Assembly: GCF_003990725.2 (NCBI RefSeq)
Contig: NZ_CP030064.1
Span: forward strand, 744,001 to 808,000
DNA: 64,000 nucleotides
From: Halorubrum sp. PV6
Lineage (GTDB): Archaea; Halobacteriota; Halobacteria; Halobacteriales; Haloferacaceae
Reading direction: 5' to 3'
Position numbers and translations under genes: made by a program. Position 1 is the first letter of the stretch. Each line of letters begins with the position of its first letter. This document shows, in pieces, positions 55,452-59,351 of the stretch. The notes beneath the pieces were generated by a model. The model had not been told where the DNA came from, searched no databases, and saw nothing but the letters and a program-made list of their open reading frames with translations.

Positions 55452-56126
55452 TCAGAACGGCCCGCCGAATCCGAGCCCGCCCACGAACACCAACCCGACG
55501 GTCAAAAGCACGGAGAGGGCGAAGAAGCCGGCCCACACCGGCTTGCTCCACTTCATGACGGTCTTCCCGTCGAGGGGGCCGTACGGGATCAGGTTAAACG
55601 CGGCGAGGAAGACGTTGATCGCGATGCCCCGCGAGCCGATCAGGGTGACGACCGGGCTTCCGATCACGGGCCCGACGACAAGCGCCGGCAGGAAGACGGC
55701 CGTGAGAAGCAGGTTGACGACCGGGCCGGCGAGCGCGATGTGACCGTGTTCGCGCGGCGTGAGCCGACCGCGGTGGTGGACCGCGCCGGGCGCGGCGAAG
55801 ATGAACCCCAGGAGCGAGCTCATCACCGCCAGAAACAGCATGCTGTTGTCGGCCCGGAACTCGGCCACCTGGTCGTAGTGGACCGCGACGACCTTGTGGG
55901 CGATCTCGTGGAGCAGGAACGCGACGCCCGCAGTGAGCAGCCCGACGAGCAGCGGCGGGAGCACGCCCGCCGCGAGCAGTCGCCCGAAGCCCGCGGTGCC
56001 GTTCACGAAGAAGAGCGTGAACGCGACGCCGAGCGCGAGCCACGCGACGAGTAGGTCGCGGAGCTCCGTGCCGCTGAAGTAGAGCCCGGCGATCCGGCGG
56101 CCCTGGAAGGTGCCACTCACGGGCAT
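55452..56126 (-). CDS. Site-2-type intramembrane metalloprotease (M50)
   Basis: 224 residues with about six membrane helices. The zinc-binding motif is FLLHEIAHKVVAVHY (HExxH), and the third ligand region reads AFNLIPYGPLDGKTVMKW (NxxPxxxxDG). GHIALAGPVVNLLLTA is the conserved GPxxN-like segment. These define a site-2 protease able to cut within membranes. I start at ATG 56126 (MPVSGTFQGRRIAGL); an upstream ATG at 56183 would overlap the TraB gene by 11 bases. The neighbours are a TraB-like membrane protein upstream on the same strand and, beyond it, a divergent membrane-anchored winged-helix regulator, a possible substrate (inference). Confidence 0.9.
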   Translation of the reverse strand: MPVSGTFQGRRIAGLYFSGTELRDLLVAWLALGVAFTLFFVNGTAGFGRLLAAGVLPPLLVGLLTAGVAFLLHEIAHKVVAVHYDQVAEFRADNSMLFLAVMSSLLGFIFAAPGAVHHRGRLTPREHGHIALAGPVVNLLLTAVFLPALVVGPVIGSPVVTLIGSRGIAINVFLAAFNLIPYGPLDGKTVMKWSKPVWAGFFALSVLLTVGLVFVGGLGFGGPF

Positions 56127-56172
56127 CCCCCTCCCGCGAGTCGGGTTACGGGAGCCACCGAGCGCGGATCGC

Positions 56173-57954
56173 TCATGCGCCACCCGTGACCGCGTTCCGG
56201 ACCAACTCGGCCCCAGTGGTTGCGCCCTGGACCAGCAGCCGCCCCACCTCGTCGACGCCGCCGACGTCCCCGAACATCGCGGGGATGACGTACACCGCGA
56301 ACAGGAAGCTCGCGACGATGCTGCCGATGTTCGTCATCGCGACGACGACGATGAGCTTGAACAGGGGCACGTCGAGCATCGCGGCAATAAGCTCCGAGGG
56401 CGACTGCGTCTCGTCGGAGAGCAGCTCGTTGAGCCGCCCGATGTCGCCGACGTTCACCGTCAGACTGCGCAGTTCGACGTAGCCGGTGAACCAGCCGGGA
56501 GCCAGCATCGGGTTGATCGAGGTCATCCACGCGACCGCGCCGCCGACCCCGGCAGATGTCCAGCGAGCCCCGGCAGCCTTCGCGAACGCGAACGCGAAGA
56601 CGCCGTTTATCAGGAACCACGCGGCGAACAGCCGGAGCAGGAACGCGTTCGCCACGCCGGCGAGCGCGAGCAGGACGAAAAAGCCCACGAACCCGACGGT
56701 GATCGCGTAGCCGATCGCCTTCTTCCAGGGGAGTCCGCGCCCGCGCTCTTTCCCCACGAGGTCCTCCATCGGGGGCAGCGAGGCGGGGTCGGCGAGGTAC
56801 CCCTCGATCCCGGCCCGGTGGCCCGCCCCGACGACGGCGACCACGTCGTAGCCGGCCTCGCGGAGGGCGACGAGGCGGTGGCCGATGAAGGCGTCGCGCT
56901 CGTCGATGAGCGCCTCGGCCCCGCCGGGCGAGAACTGGCGGAACTCCTCCATCATCATCGTCACCACGTCGGTGTCGGTCAGGTCCTCCATCCCCAACTC
57001 TTCGATGCCGCCGTGTTCTGGCTCGCCGCCGCCCCGTCCGAGGGCGCCCATCGCGAGCGACGCGAAGCCACCGAGGATCAGGCCGAACGAGACGCCGAGA
57101 CCGAGGCTCCCGACCGCGCGCACGGTGAACCCGCCGAGGTACGTCGCGACGACTCCGTCAAGCACCCCGAGGGCGGCGGCGAACACCCCCGCGACGACGC
57201 CCGAGACGGCCGCGGCGTAGAGACGTCCGTCGGGCGAGAGCGCGATCTTCCCCCCCTGATCGACGGCGATGGCGACCCCGACCGCGGCGACGACGCCGCC
57301 CGTGACGCTCGTCAGCAGCGCGTCGGTGACGCCGAAGCTCCCGCCGAAGAGACCGATCACCGGTCCGGCCAAGATTCCGACGAACAGCCCGACCAACACG
57401 CCGACGACCCGAGAGTCGGTGACGCCGAACGCGAGCCCGCCGACCATGCGCAGCTTCTCCGTGATCGTCATCCGGGCCCAGAAGCGCTGGATCGTCGTCT
57501 GGATGTCCCTGTCGACCAAGGCCACGTCGATGCCGAGCCCCTCGGCGACGTCGATGGCGGCTCGCATGTCCGCGCCGGGCTCGATGTCGAAGCGGTCGCC
57601 CAGCTGGGTCTGGACGTACGACAGCATCCAGTACGCGAGGAACTGGAAGACGGTGTTGCCCCGGAGCAGGTCGCTCGCGTCCAGATCGTCGGGGCTCTCG
57701 CCGTTCATCTGCCGGTACCGCCCCTCGTCGAGTTCGACGGCGACCACGTCGGGTCGCTCGCGTTCGATCGTCTCCTCGACCTCGTCGACCGACCGCTCGG
57801 AGACGTGTGCGGTCCCGACGACCGTCACCGAGCCGTCGCCCTCGGCGGTCGCGCCGGCCGCGTCGCTCGGCGGGGCGCCCTCGCCGCCGGAGGCGACTGC
57901 CGGGCCGTTCGCCGTCGGGGGCGGGGACTCGGATCCCCCTGGCGTCTCTGTCAT
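56173..57954 (-). CDS. TraB/PrgY-family membrane protein
   Basis: 593 residues. After a disordered N-terminal 40 residues, the TraB domain is split: VTVVGTAHVSERSVDEVEET with a conserved His, then DVVAVELDEGRY and FEIEPG-like RFDIEPGADMRAAI, later VVAVVGAGHRAGIEGYL with a second conserved His. A long insert of hydrophobic segments (about 165-330) and a C-terminal set (about 435-590) make it a polytopic membrane protein. Relatives include the enterococcal pheromone-shutdown protein PrgY and GumN/TIKI proteins, thought to be metal-dependent peptidases. In archaea the substrate is unknown. CCTAAAC on the minus strand near 57980 supports ATG 57954; a GTG at 57960 adds two residues. It is followed by the site-2 protease, 46 bases away. 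Confidence 0.87.
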   Translation of the reverse strand: MTETPGGSESPPPTANGPAVASGGEGAPPSDAAGATAEGDGSVTVVGTAHVSERSVDEVEETIERERPDVVAVELDEGRYRQMNGESPDDLDASDLLRGNTVFQFLAYWMLSYVQTQLGDRFDIEPGADMRAAIDVAEGLGIDVALVDRDIQTTIQRFWARMTITEKLRMVGGLAFGVTDSRVVGVLVGLFVGILAGPVIGLFGGSFGVTDALLTSVTGGVVAAVGVAIAVDQGGKIALSPDGRLYAAAVSGVVAGVFAAALGVLDGVVATYLGGFTVRAVGSLGLGVSFGLILGGFASLAMGALGRGGGEPEHGGIEELGMEDLTDTDVVTMMMEEFRQFSPGGAEALIDERDAFIGHRLVALREAGYDVVAVVGAGHRAGIEGYLADPASLPPMEDLVGKERGRGLPWKKAIGYAITVGFVGFFVLLALAGVANAFLLRLFAAWFLINGVFAFAFAKAAGARWTSAGVGGAVAWMTSINPMLAPGWFTGYVELRSLTVNVGDIGRLNELLSDETQSPSELIAAMLDVPLFKLIVVVAMTNIGSIVASFLFAVYVIPAMFGDVGGVDEVGRLLVQGATTGAELVRNAVTGGA

Positions 57955-58061
57955 TGCCACGACCTACTCCGTCGCCGCGTTTAGGGTTTGTGAGTCGGTG
58001 AGCCCCGTTCGCGCGTTGTCGATCCAACAAATTTGTATCCTCACGGGGTAGACTGTGGGGT

Positions 58062-58754
58062 ATGTCGCGGCTGTTGCCCTCCATCTCCGACGCGACCCCC
58101 GAGAACCGCGAGCCTCGGGTCGTCGGCGTCGACGACGACGACGCAGACGCCCTCATCGCGGCCCTCGGCTCCGAGACGGCGCGTGAGATTCTCACGCACC
58201 TCCACGATCAGCCGGCGACCAAGTCGGAGCTCGCCGACGCCGTCGACACCTCGCTCCAGAACGTCCAGTACCACCTCTCGAAGCTCGACGGCGCGAACCT
58301 CGTCGAGGTGGTCGACACGACCTACTCCGAGAAGGGTCGCGAGATGGACGTGTACGCGGCCGCCGACGAGCCCCTCGTGCTCTTTGCCGGCGGCTCGGCC
58401 GAGTCGCGCGGGATCAAGTCCGCGCTCATGCGCCTGCTCGGCGGGTACGGCGTCATCGGACTGGCGGCGGTCGCGGCCCAGCGTCTCCTCTCCGTCGCCG
58501 ACCCGACCGCCCGCGTGACGACGACCACCGACGGGGCCGGCGGCGACGCCGTGGGCGCGGACGGCTCGGACGGCGCCTCGATCGAGTCCGCATCGGACGC
58601 CGGAGGGGGCGACATCGACGGGACCGTCGAGTACGTCGTCGACCCCCTCGCCGACTACGCCGTCTCGCTCGTCGAGCCCGGACTCGTCTTCTTCATCGGG
58701 GCCGCCGTCGTGTTCACGCTCGCGTGGGCGTACTGGTACCGGAGCGGTCGCTGA
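58062..58754 (+). CDS. Membrane-anchored winged-helix (ArsR-like) regulator
   Basis: 230 residues. The N-terminal winged helix (about 25-100) reads ALIAALGSETAREILTHLHD, ATKSELADAVDTSLQNVQYH and LVEVVDTTYSEKGREMDVYA. A hydrophobic segment follows at about 122-143 (LLGGYGVIGLAAVAAQRLL), then a Ser/Asp/Gly-rich loop of about 50 residues, then a C-terminal membrane helix at about 205-226 (VFFIGAAVVFTLAWAYWY). A DNA-binding domain tethered to the membrane is unusual outside haloarchaea. CAAATTTG at 58029-58036 fits the leaderless ATG at 58062. Divergent from the TraB-like and site-2 protease genes. Confidence 0.88.
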   Translation: MSRLLPSISDATPENREPRVVGVDDDDADALIAALGSETAREILTHLHDQPATKSELADAVDTSLQNVQYHLSKLDGANLVEVVDTTYSEKGREMDVYAAADEPLVLFAGGSAESRGIKSALMRLLGGYGVIGLAAVAAQRLLSVADPTARVTTTTDGAGGDAVGADGSDGASIESASDAGGGDIDGTVEYVVDPLADYAVSLVEPGLVFFIGAAVVFTLAWAYWYRSGR

Positions 58755-58858: not shown

Positions 58859-58898
58859 CGTGGGACAGCTATTCATGCCGTCGTCGACTGTACCCACC

Positions 58899-59351
58899 AT
58901 GGAACACGAAGCCGAGGTCGTCGGGGTCGGGGCGGGCTCCGCACCCGGCGGCGACGTGCCGGCGGTCATTCTTGCGGCGCGCGACGAGTACGTCCCGATC
59001 TTCGTCAGCGGCGATCAGGCGCAGTCGATCGGGATGGCACTGGAGGGCGAACCGTTCGACAGACCGCTGACACACGACCTCCTCGTCGACATCCTCACCG
59101 AGTTCGGCGGCGCGATAGACCGCGTCAGGGTCGACGACCTCAGAGACGGCACCTTCTACGCCAAAGTCGACGCCGAGCGGTACGAGGACGGCGAGCCGGA
59201 GCGGTTCGTCTTCGACGCGCGCCCCTCCGACGCGCTCGCGCTCGCCGTCCGGATCGACTGTCCGATAGTCGTCTCCGACGAAGTGATAGACGAGGCGGGA
59301 CGCTCACAGGACTCGGTCCGGTTCGACGACGGCCCTCGCGGCGACTCGTAA
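58899..59351 (+). CDS. Bifunctional nuclease-domain (DUF151) protein
   Basis: 150 residues. PAVILAARDEYVPIFVSGDQ with AQSIGMALEGEPFDRPLTHD and LLVDILTEFGG, then FDARPSDALALAVRIDCPI, are the hallmarks of the BFN/DUF151 domain, first described as a plant nuclease domain; archaeal members are uncharacterised. The ATG at 58899 is 27 bases from a CTATTC element, favouring it over an in-frame ATG at 58860. It is preceded by the 34-bp duplication and followed 54 bases later by the thioesterase gene. Confidence 0.9.
   Translation: MEHEAEVVGVGAGSAPGGDVPAVILAARDEYVPIFVSGDQAQSIGMALEGEPFDRPLTHDLLVDILTEFGGAIDRVRVDDLRDGTFYAKVDAERYEDGEPERFVFDARPSDALALAVRIDCPIVVSDEVIDEAGRSQDSVRFDDGPRGDS

Follow-up and report, generated by a model that had tools for sequence, protein, structure and literature searches.

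A conserved TraB and site-2 protease gene pair in haloarchaea, with a putative membrane-hairpin winged-helix regulator as a local neighbor

Which genes beside an archaeal site-2 protease (S2P) belong to its function, and which only lie near it? The question is raised by a locus of Halorubrum sp. PV6, found within a stretch of 64,000 nucleotides (contig NZ_CP030064.1, positions 744,001 to 808,000; hereafter the window). An M50 S2P (55452..56183, minus strand, 243 residues) and a TraB/PrgY/GumN (Tiki-like) membrane protein (56173..57960, minus strand, 595 residues; hereafter TraB) are encoded there, divergently from a membrane-hairpin winged-helix regulator of the HVO_1552 family (58062..58754, plus strand, 230 residues). 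A first-pass annotation had drawn the same three open reading frames. It had named them an HExxH/NxxPxxxxDG intramembrane protease, a TraB-family protein and a winged-helix DNA-binding protein with two C-terminal hydrophobic segments, and these identifications held on the evidence given below. The gap that it placed at 57955-58061 was also right, as the likely start codon of TraB is the ATG at 57954. Its further proposal, that the three proteins form an intramembrane-proteolysis switch, fared less well: the S2P was found to stay with TraB far beyond the genus, and the regulator was not.

Eighty haloarchaeal loci were fetched around TraB (20 from the genus, 31 from other genera of the family, 29 from other families), and relatives' loci were processed with gene-finding scripts, which are heuristic. 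In 77 of the 80 loci the S2P gene adjoined TraB and shared its strand, and a 4-base overlap of the two frames was the commonest arrangement across these relatives (77 loci). In the window, the end of TraB and the longest S2P frame overlap by 11 bases (56173..56183, minus strand; gap list of the same 77 loci). In several relatives a stop codon falls within the first ~20 residues of this longer frame, so translation of the S2P is likely to begin at the ATG at 56126, and 56126-56183, which would encode those residues, is probably untranslated.

Beyond the haloarchaea, 40 loci from 20 families of the phylum were hand-picked, non-randomly, from 148 genomes, with at least one locus per family (f18-f37) and extras from several, mainly f19 and f21. 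Of these loci, 18 (11/20 families) had an S2P gene ≤300 bp from TraB and in the same orientation. In all 18, the protease was a longer one (349-402 residues) encoded upstream of TraB; that of L226, the sole one of the 18 run against Pfam, carries CBS domains. Five loci (L226, L231, L234, L240 and L242) hold TraB between a longer CBS-type S2P upstream and a minimal, window-like S2P downstream, all on one strand. As two S2P types thus flank TraB on opposite sides, the bond is read as functional, beyond inherited gene order. The TraB-S2P linkage exceeds chance, and on these comparisons the pair is an ancient unit, much wider than the genus, whose two members probably work together.

The window S2P contains HEIAH (HExxH, the zinc motif) and NLIPYGPLDG (NxxPxxxxDG), and no PDZ or CBS domain was found in it. 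As a single sequence it scored just below the Pfam M50 cut-off (25.9 bits vs. 27.2, E = 7.3e-6), and its relative in L231 scored 39.0 bits. H92, E93 and H96 were invariant among 78 aligned sequences, and both catalytic motifs were kept in 77 of them; the motif residues were invariant or near-invariant in this alignment and likewise in a set of 23 sequences. We infer from this conservation that the enzyme is active. Of the 243 genomes that represent the order, 236 carried the S2P, including every one of the 205 of good quality.

TraB scored above both family cut-offs, with 252.5 bits against TIGR00261 (cut-off 178.35, E = 6e-75) and 94.1 bits against PF01963 (cut-off 26.8, E = 1.7e-26). The TraB/PrgY/Tiki superfamily is marked by two G-x-x-H motifs and an acidic residue, on a fold common to ChaN and erythromycin esterase. 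The corresponding residues in the window protein (GTAH 49-52, E76 and GAGH 378-381) were near-invariant in 81 aligned sequences; the GTAH, E76/D78/R81 (E-x-D), DERD and GAGH blocks were all nearly invariant, as would be expected of an enzyme. The AlphaFold model (mean pLDDT 84.6) consists of an alpha/beta hydrolase-like domain, which four inserted helices interrupt, and then a C-terminal helical bundle. A whole-model Foldseek search of the PDB gave no match at E ≤ 0.001, the best being a Tetrahymena TraB family protein (E = 3.4e-3). The VIA Z was 13.9 to the TraB family protein of Tetrahymena complex IV, 8.4 to ChaN and 6.1 to EreC.

The side of the membrane on which this domain lies was predicted from lysine and arginine counts in 36 non-halophile TraB sequences. 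These counts were 5.1 for loop 498-531, 3.1 ahead of the C-terminal bundle and 0.2 for the TM5-6 loop, with more of the basic residues on the hydrolase-domain side. Under the positive-inside rule, basic residues mark the cytoplasmic side, and the hydrolase-like domain is therefore predicted to be cytoplasmic. The N-terminus of TRABD is likewise reported to face the cytoplasm (PMC12329661). In four loci (L228, L235, L245 and L246), from families without an adjacent S2P, a CxxCxxCC protein is encoded directly upstream of TraB, with the longest frames overlapping; it is putatively zinc/iron-chelating (Pfam was run on the L246 protein only).

The explanation that we prefer, in which we place about as much trust as doubt, is that TraB and the S2P form an ancient, translationally coupled module in which the S2P cuts and TraB handles the products, with the hairpin regulator a local neighbor. 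The S2P would cut its substrates within the membrane, as its observed motif conservation suggests. TraB, which has its own membrane bundle and whose Tiki/ChaN/erythromycin-esterase-like domain is predicted at the cytoplasmic face, would then degrade, process or capture what the S2P releases. The hairpin winged-helix protein may be a client of the module, of which it is no constant member. That the S2P would act before TraB is modeled on enterococcal Eep and PrgY/TraB, and is to be taken as an analogy. Several observations weigh against this account. Three of the 80 haloarchaeal loci lack an adjacent S2P, 22 of the 40 non-halophile loci have none within 300 bp of TraB, and some families pair TraB with the CxxCxxCC metal-binding protein instead. 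The TraB matches to ChaN and EreC are moderate, and no report of activity was found, whether of an archaeal TraB or of the window S2P. Finally, the presumed site of PrgY action is extracellular (PMC7117660), opposite to the orientation predicted here; given this counter-example, the cytoplasmic TraB domain stays a prediction.

The same metal-binding neighbor gives a different view of TraB, as a ChaN-like, non-peptidase partner that handles metal or haem and supplies, senses or gates the S2P. Several families that have no S2P at this place encode the neighbor immediately upstream of TraB, which would fit, as would the structural match to haem-binding ChaN. We nonetheless consider such a role unlikely: published accounts treat PrgY/TraB and Tiki as peptidase-like (PMC7117660), and the same domain also matches the esterase EreC, though more weakly.

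Whether the module acts on the regulator, as the proposed switch would have it, depends on both the protein and its distribution. The regulator matched HTH_20 (PF12840, E = 6e-13) and HVO_1552_C (PF24267, E = 2.7e-12), and its Foldseek matches were archaeal ArsR-like regulators (e.g. 1uly, 2p4w). Its AlphaFold model (mean pLDDT 67.5) has a winged helix (pLDDT ~90) and two helices, 112-146 and 206-229, with a segment of low confidence linking them. We read the protein as an ArsR-like winged helix followed by a two-helix membrane hairpin, and as a putative S2P substrate; in the topology that this suggests, the first helix would be N-in, the orientation usual for S2P substrates. The winged helix and a DTxYSEKGREM block are nearly fixed among relatives, and the loop between the helices is hypervariable in both length and sequence.

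The regulator adjoined TraB in 20/20 Halorubrum loci. The script count was 19, as the TraB frame of L181 (5837-7627) is interrupted; the regulator stands at its usual place there. Among the 31 loci from the family's other genera, 17 contained the regulator, which adjoined TraB in 2 and lay nearby in the remaining 15, and a glycerate kinase gene (DUF4147/MOFRL) lay between the two in those inspected. It was absent from the TraB locus in 29/29 loci of other families. Genome-wide, 215 of the order's 243 genomes had a match to the regulator alignment, often several per genome; in good genomes the count was 188/205, so that 17/205 keep the S2P with no regulator match (1e-25). Eighty named loci encoding a relative of the regulator were also compared, with TraB nearby in 45 and not in 35. 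Neighbors were counted in 31 of these 35 (L303-L345, outside the window's family; L301, L305, L332 and L344 were left out), and an M29 aminopeptidase gene was near the regulator orthologue in 27 of them and a protein that we take to be phosphoesterase-like in 17.

On the far side of the regulator, just 3' of it and on the same strand, lies a gene for a bifunctional nuclease-domain protein (58860..59351, plus strand; PF02577, E = 7.6e-35), and the two were same-strand neighbors in 33/33 loci with both. The first-pass proposal did not include this gene. The regulator is tied to this nuclease gene at least as closely as to TraB. Two Halopenitus loci (L301 and L305) keep regulator and nuclease, with no TraB in the locus. 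At the other end of the window locus, purM lies downstream of the S2P. The regulator-TraB linkage exceeds chance only within one family. The regulator was rejected as a constant part of the module, given 0/29 loci in other families, orthologues located elsewhere and 17/205 genomes without a match.

Of the expectation that the three genes stay together across haloarchaea, the TraB-S2P half was sustained (77/80) and the regulator half failed outside the family (0/29). A restriction to this genus, named beforehand as evidence against the switch, nearly applies to direct regulator-TraB adjacency (20/20 vs. 2/31), and presence in the locus reaches further (17/31). In the switch, the S2P, perhaps after a cut by TraB, would free the winged-helix domain to control transcription. 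A modeled hairpin with an N-terminal DNA-binding domain suits this, as does a regulator that is the divergent neighbor in all genus loci and is present in 17 of the 31 loci of the family's other genera. In another family (L249; L200-L202), the gene immediately upstream of TraB encodes a winged-helix protein that is unrelated to the regulator but also has two hydrophobic segments, and this points the same way. But the switch has to contend with the absence of the regulator from loci of other families, its orthologues near the M29 aminopeptidase, the 17 genomes that do without it, the hypervariable external loop and the lack of a conserved palindromic operator. The suggestion that TraB makes the first cut found no support: with its domain cytoplasmic, as predicted, TraB would not reach the external loop of the regulator. 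TraB is the sole site-1 candidate at the locus, and it is not favored as a site-1 protease since lysine and arginine cluster on the hydrolase-domain side. Taken together, we doubt that the switch operates as proposed.

The protein of L249 (6447-6944, minus strand; also in L200-L202) has 166 residues, with a proline-rich linker, and is encoded on the same strand as TraB. Winged-helix proteins with two hydrophobic segments are common in archaea, and as this arrangement occurs in one of the 40 loci, it is only suggestive.

The divergent intergenic region (57961..58061, no strand assigned) holds CCAACAAATTTGTATCC, ~38-22 bases 5' of the regulator start. Within it, at 35 bases ahead of the start, ACAAATTTGT forms a palindrome that is perfect in the window. 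Among 38 loci, the position of CCAACAAATTTGTATCC was kept in most, the palindrome inside it was intact in 6, and for ACAAATTTGT the position and mostly the right half persisted. As position and right half outlast the palindrome, CCAACAAATTTGTATCC is most likely the core promoter of the regulator. It gives no evidence for autoregulation, and ACAAATTTGT was rejected as a palindromic operator because it is intact in only 6/38 loci.

A broader claim joins the module and the regulator. A two-enzyme intramembrane-proteolysis complex ancestral to the phylum, with a cytoplasmic TraB domain completing the work begun by one or two site-2 proteases, would have been wired in one haloarchaeal family to the hairpin winged-helix protein, as a counterpart of the SREBP type; a variant would make the output an archaeal peptide signal. 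We rate this as quite improbable, and to our knowledge there is no archaeal peptide signal of the Eep/PrgY kind. Shared expression alone, with TraB and the S2P as constitutive membrane housekeeping genes without a joint reaction, is very unlikely: both genes are near-universal in haloarchaea and 22/40 non-halophile loci are unlinked, but the pairing of TraB with two different S2P types, one on each flank, is hard to obtain from inherited order alone.

For Haloferax volcanii, a review lists four site-2 proteases, all with function unknown, and it gives HVO_1555 as an M50 protease with no extra domain and of unknown function (PMC9263693). A partner gene beside this S2P type in 77/80 haloarchaeal loci is a concrete handle on the role of the protease in a genetically tractable organism, and the pair is testable in Haloferax. 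Work on the TraB/Tiki family spans bacteria to animals; nothing was found on its archaeal members in the literature searched, and no earlier description of the archaeal TraB-S2P pairing was found within a limited body of literature.

Among known systems is the locus of H. volcanii. HVO_1552 gave its name to the C-terminal Pfam family of the regulator, and from the locus numbers and loci such as L312 and L336, HVO_1555 and HVO_1552 would be the orthologues of the S2P and the regulator, with TraB and the glycerate kinase gene between them. Related genera differ from the window in that the glycerate kinase gene separates TraB from the regulator. Site-2 proteases of the mjS2P type share the M50 core (HExxH, NxxPxxxxDG) and are paired with TraB in other families, but they carry CBS domains and stand upstream of TraB, whereas the window S2P is minimal and downstream. 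In SREBP, a DNA-binding domain is followed by a two-helix membrane hairpin, a topology that the regulator resembles. Unlike the SREBP/site-1/site-2 protease system, no site-1 protease was identified here, the loop is unconserved, and cleavage of the regulator is hypothetical. Transmembrane transcription regulators of bacteria and archaea are likewise membrane-bound one-component regulators, and the text searched on them names neither haloarchaea nor S2P (PMC10269533). In enterococci, the S2P Eep releases pheromone peptides from lipoprotein signal sequences (PMC7117660, PMC10202637), and PrgY, of the TraB family, is thought to degrade the released peptides (PMC7117660). Unlike the pair in the window, Eep is chromosomal and PrgY plasmid-borne, in separate operons, with PrgY thought to act outside the cell. 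Even so, Eep with PrgY/TraB is the nearest worked-out parallel, in which the cutting of signal-peptide remnants falls to an S2P, and a membrane protein of the TraB family acts on the resulting peptide (PMC7117660).

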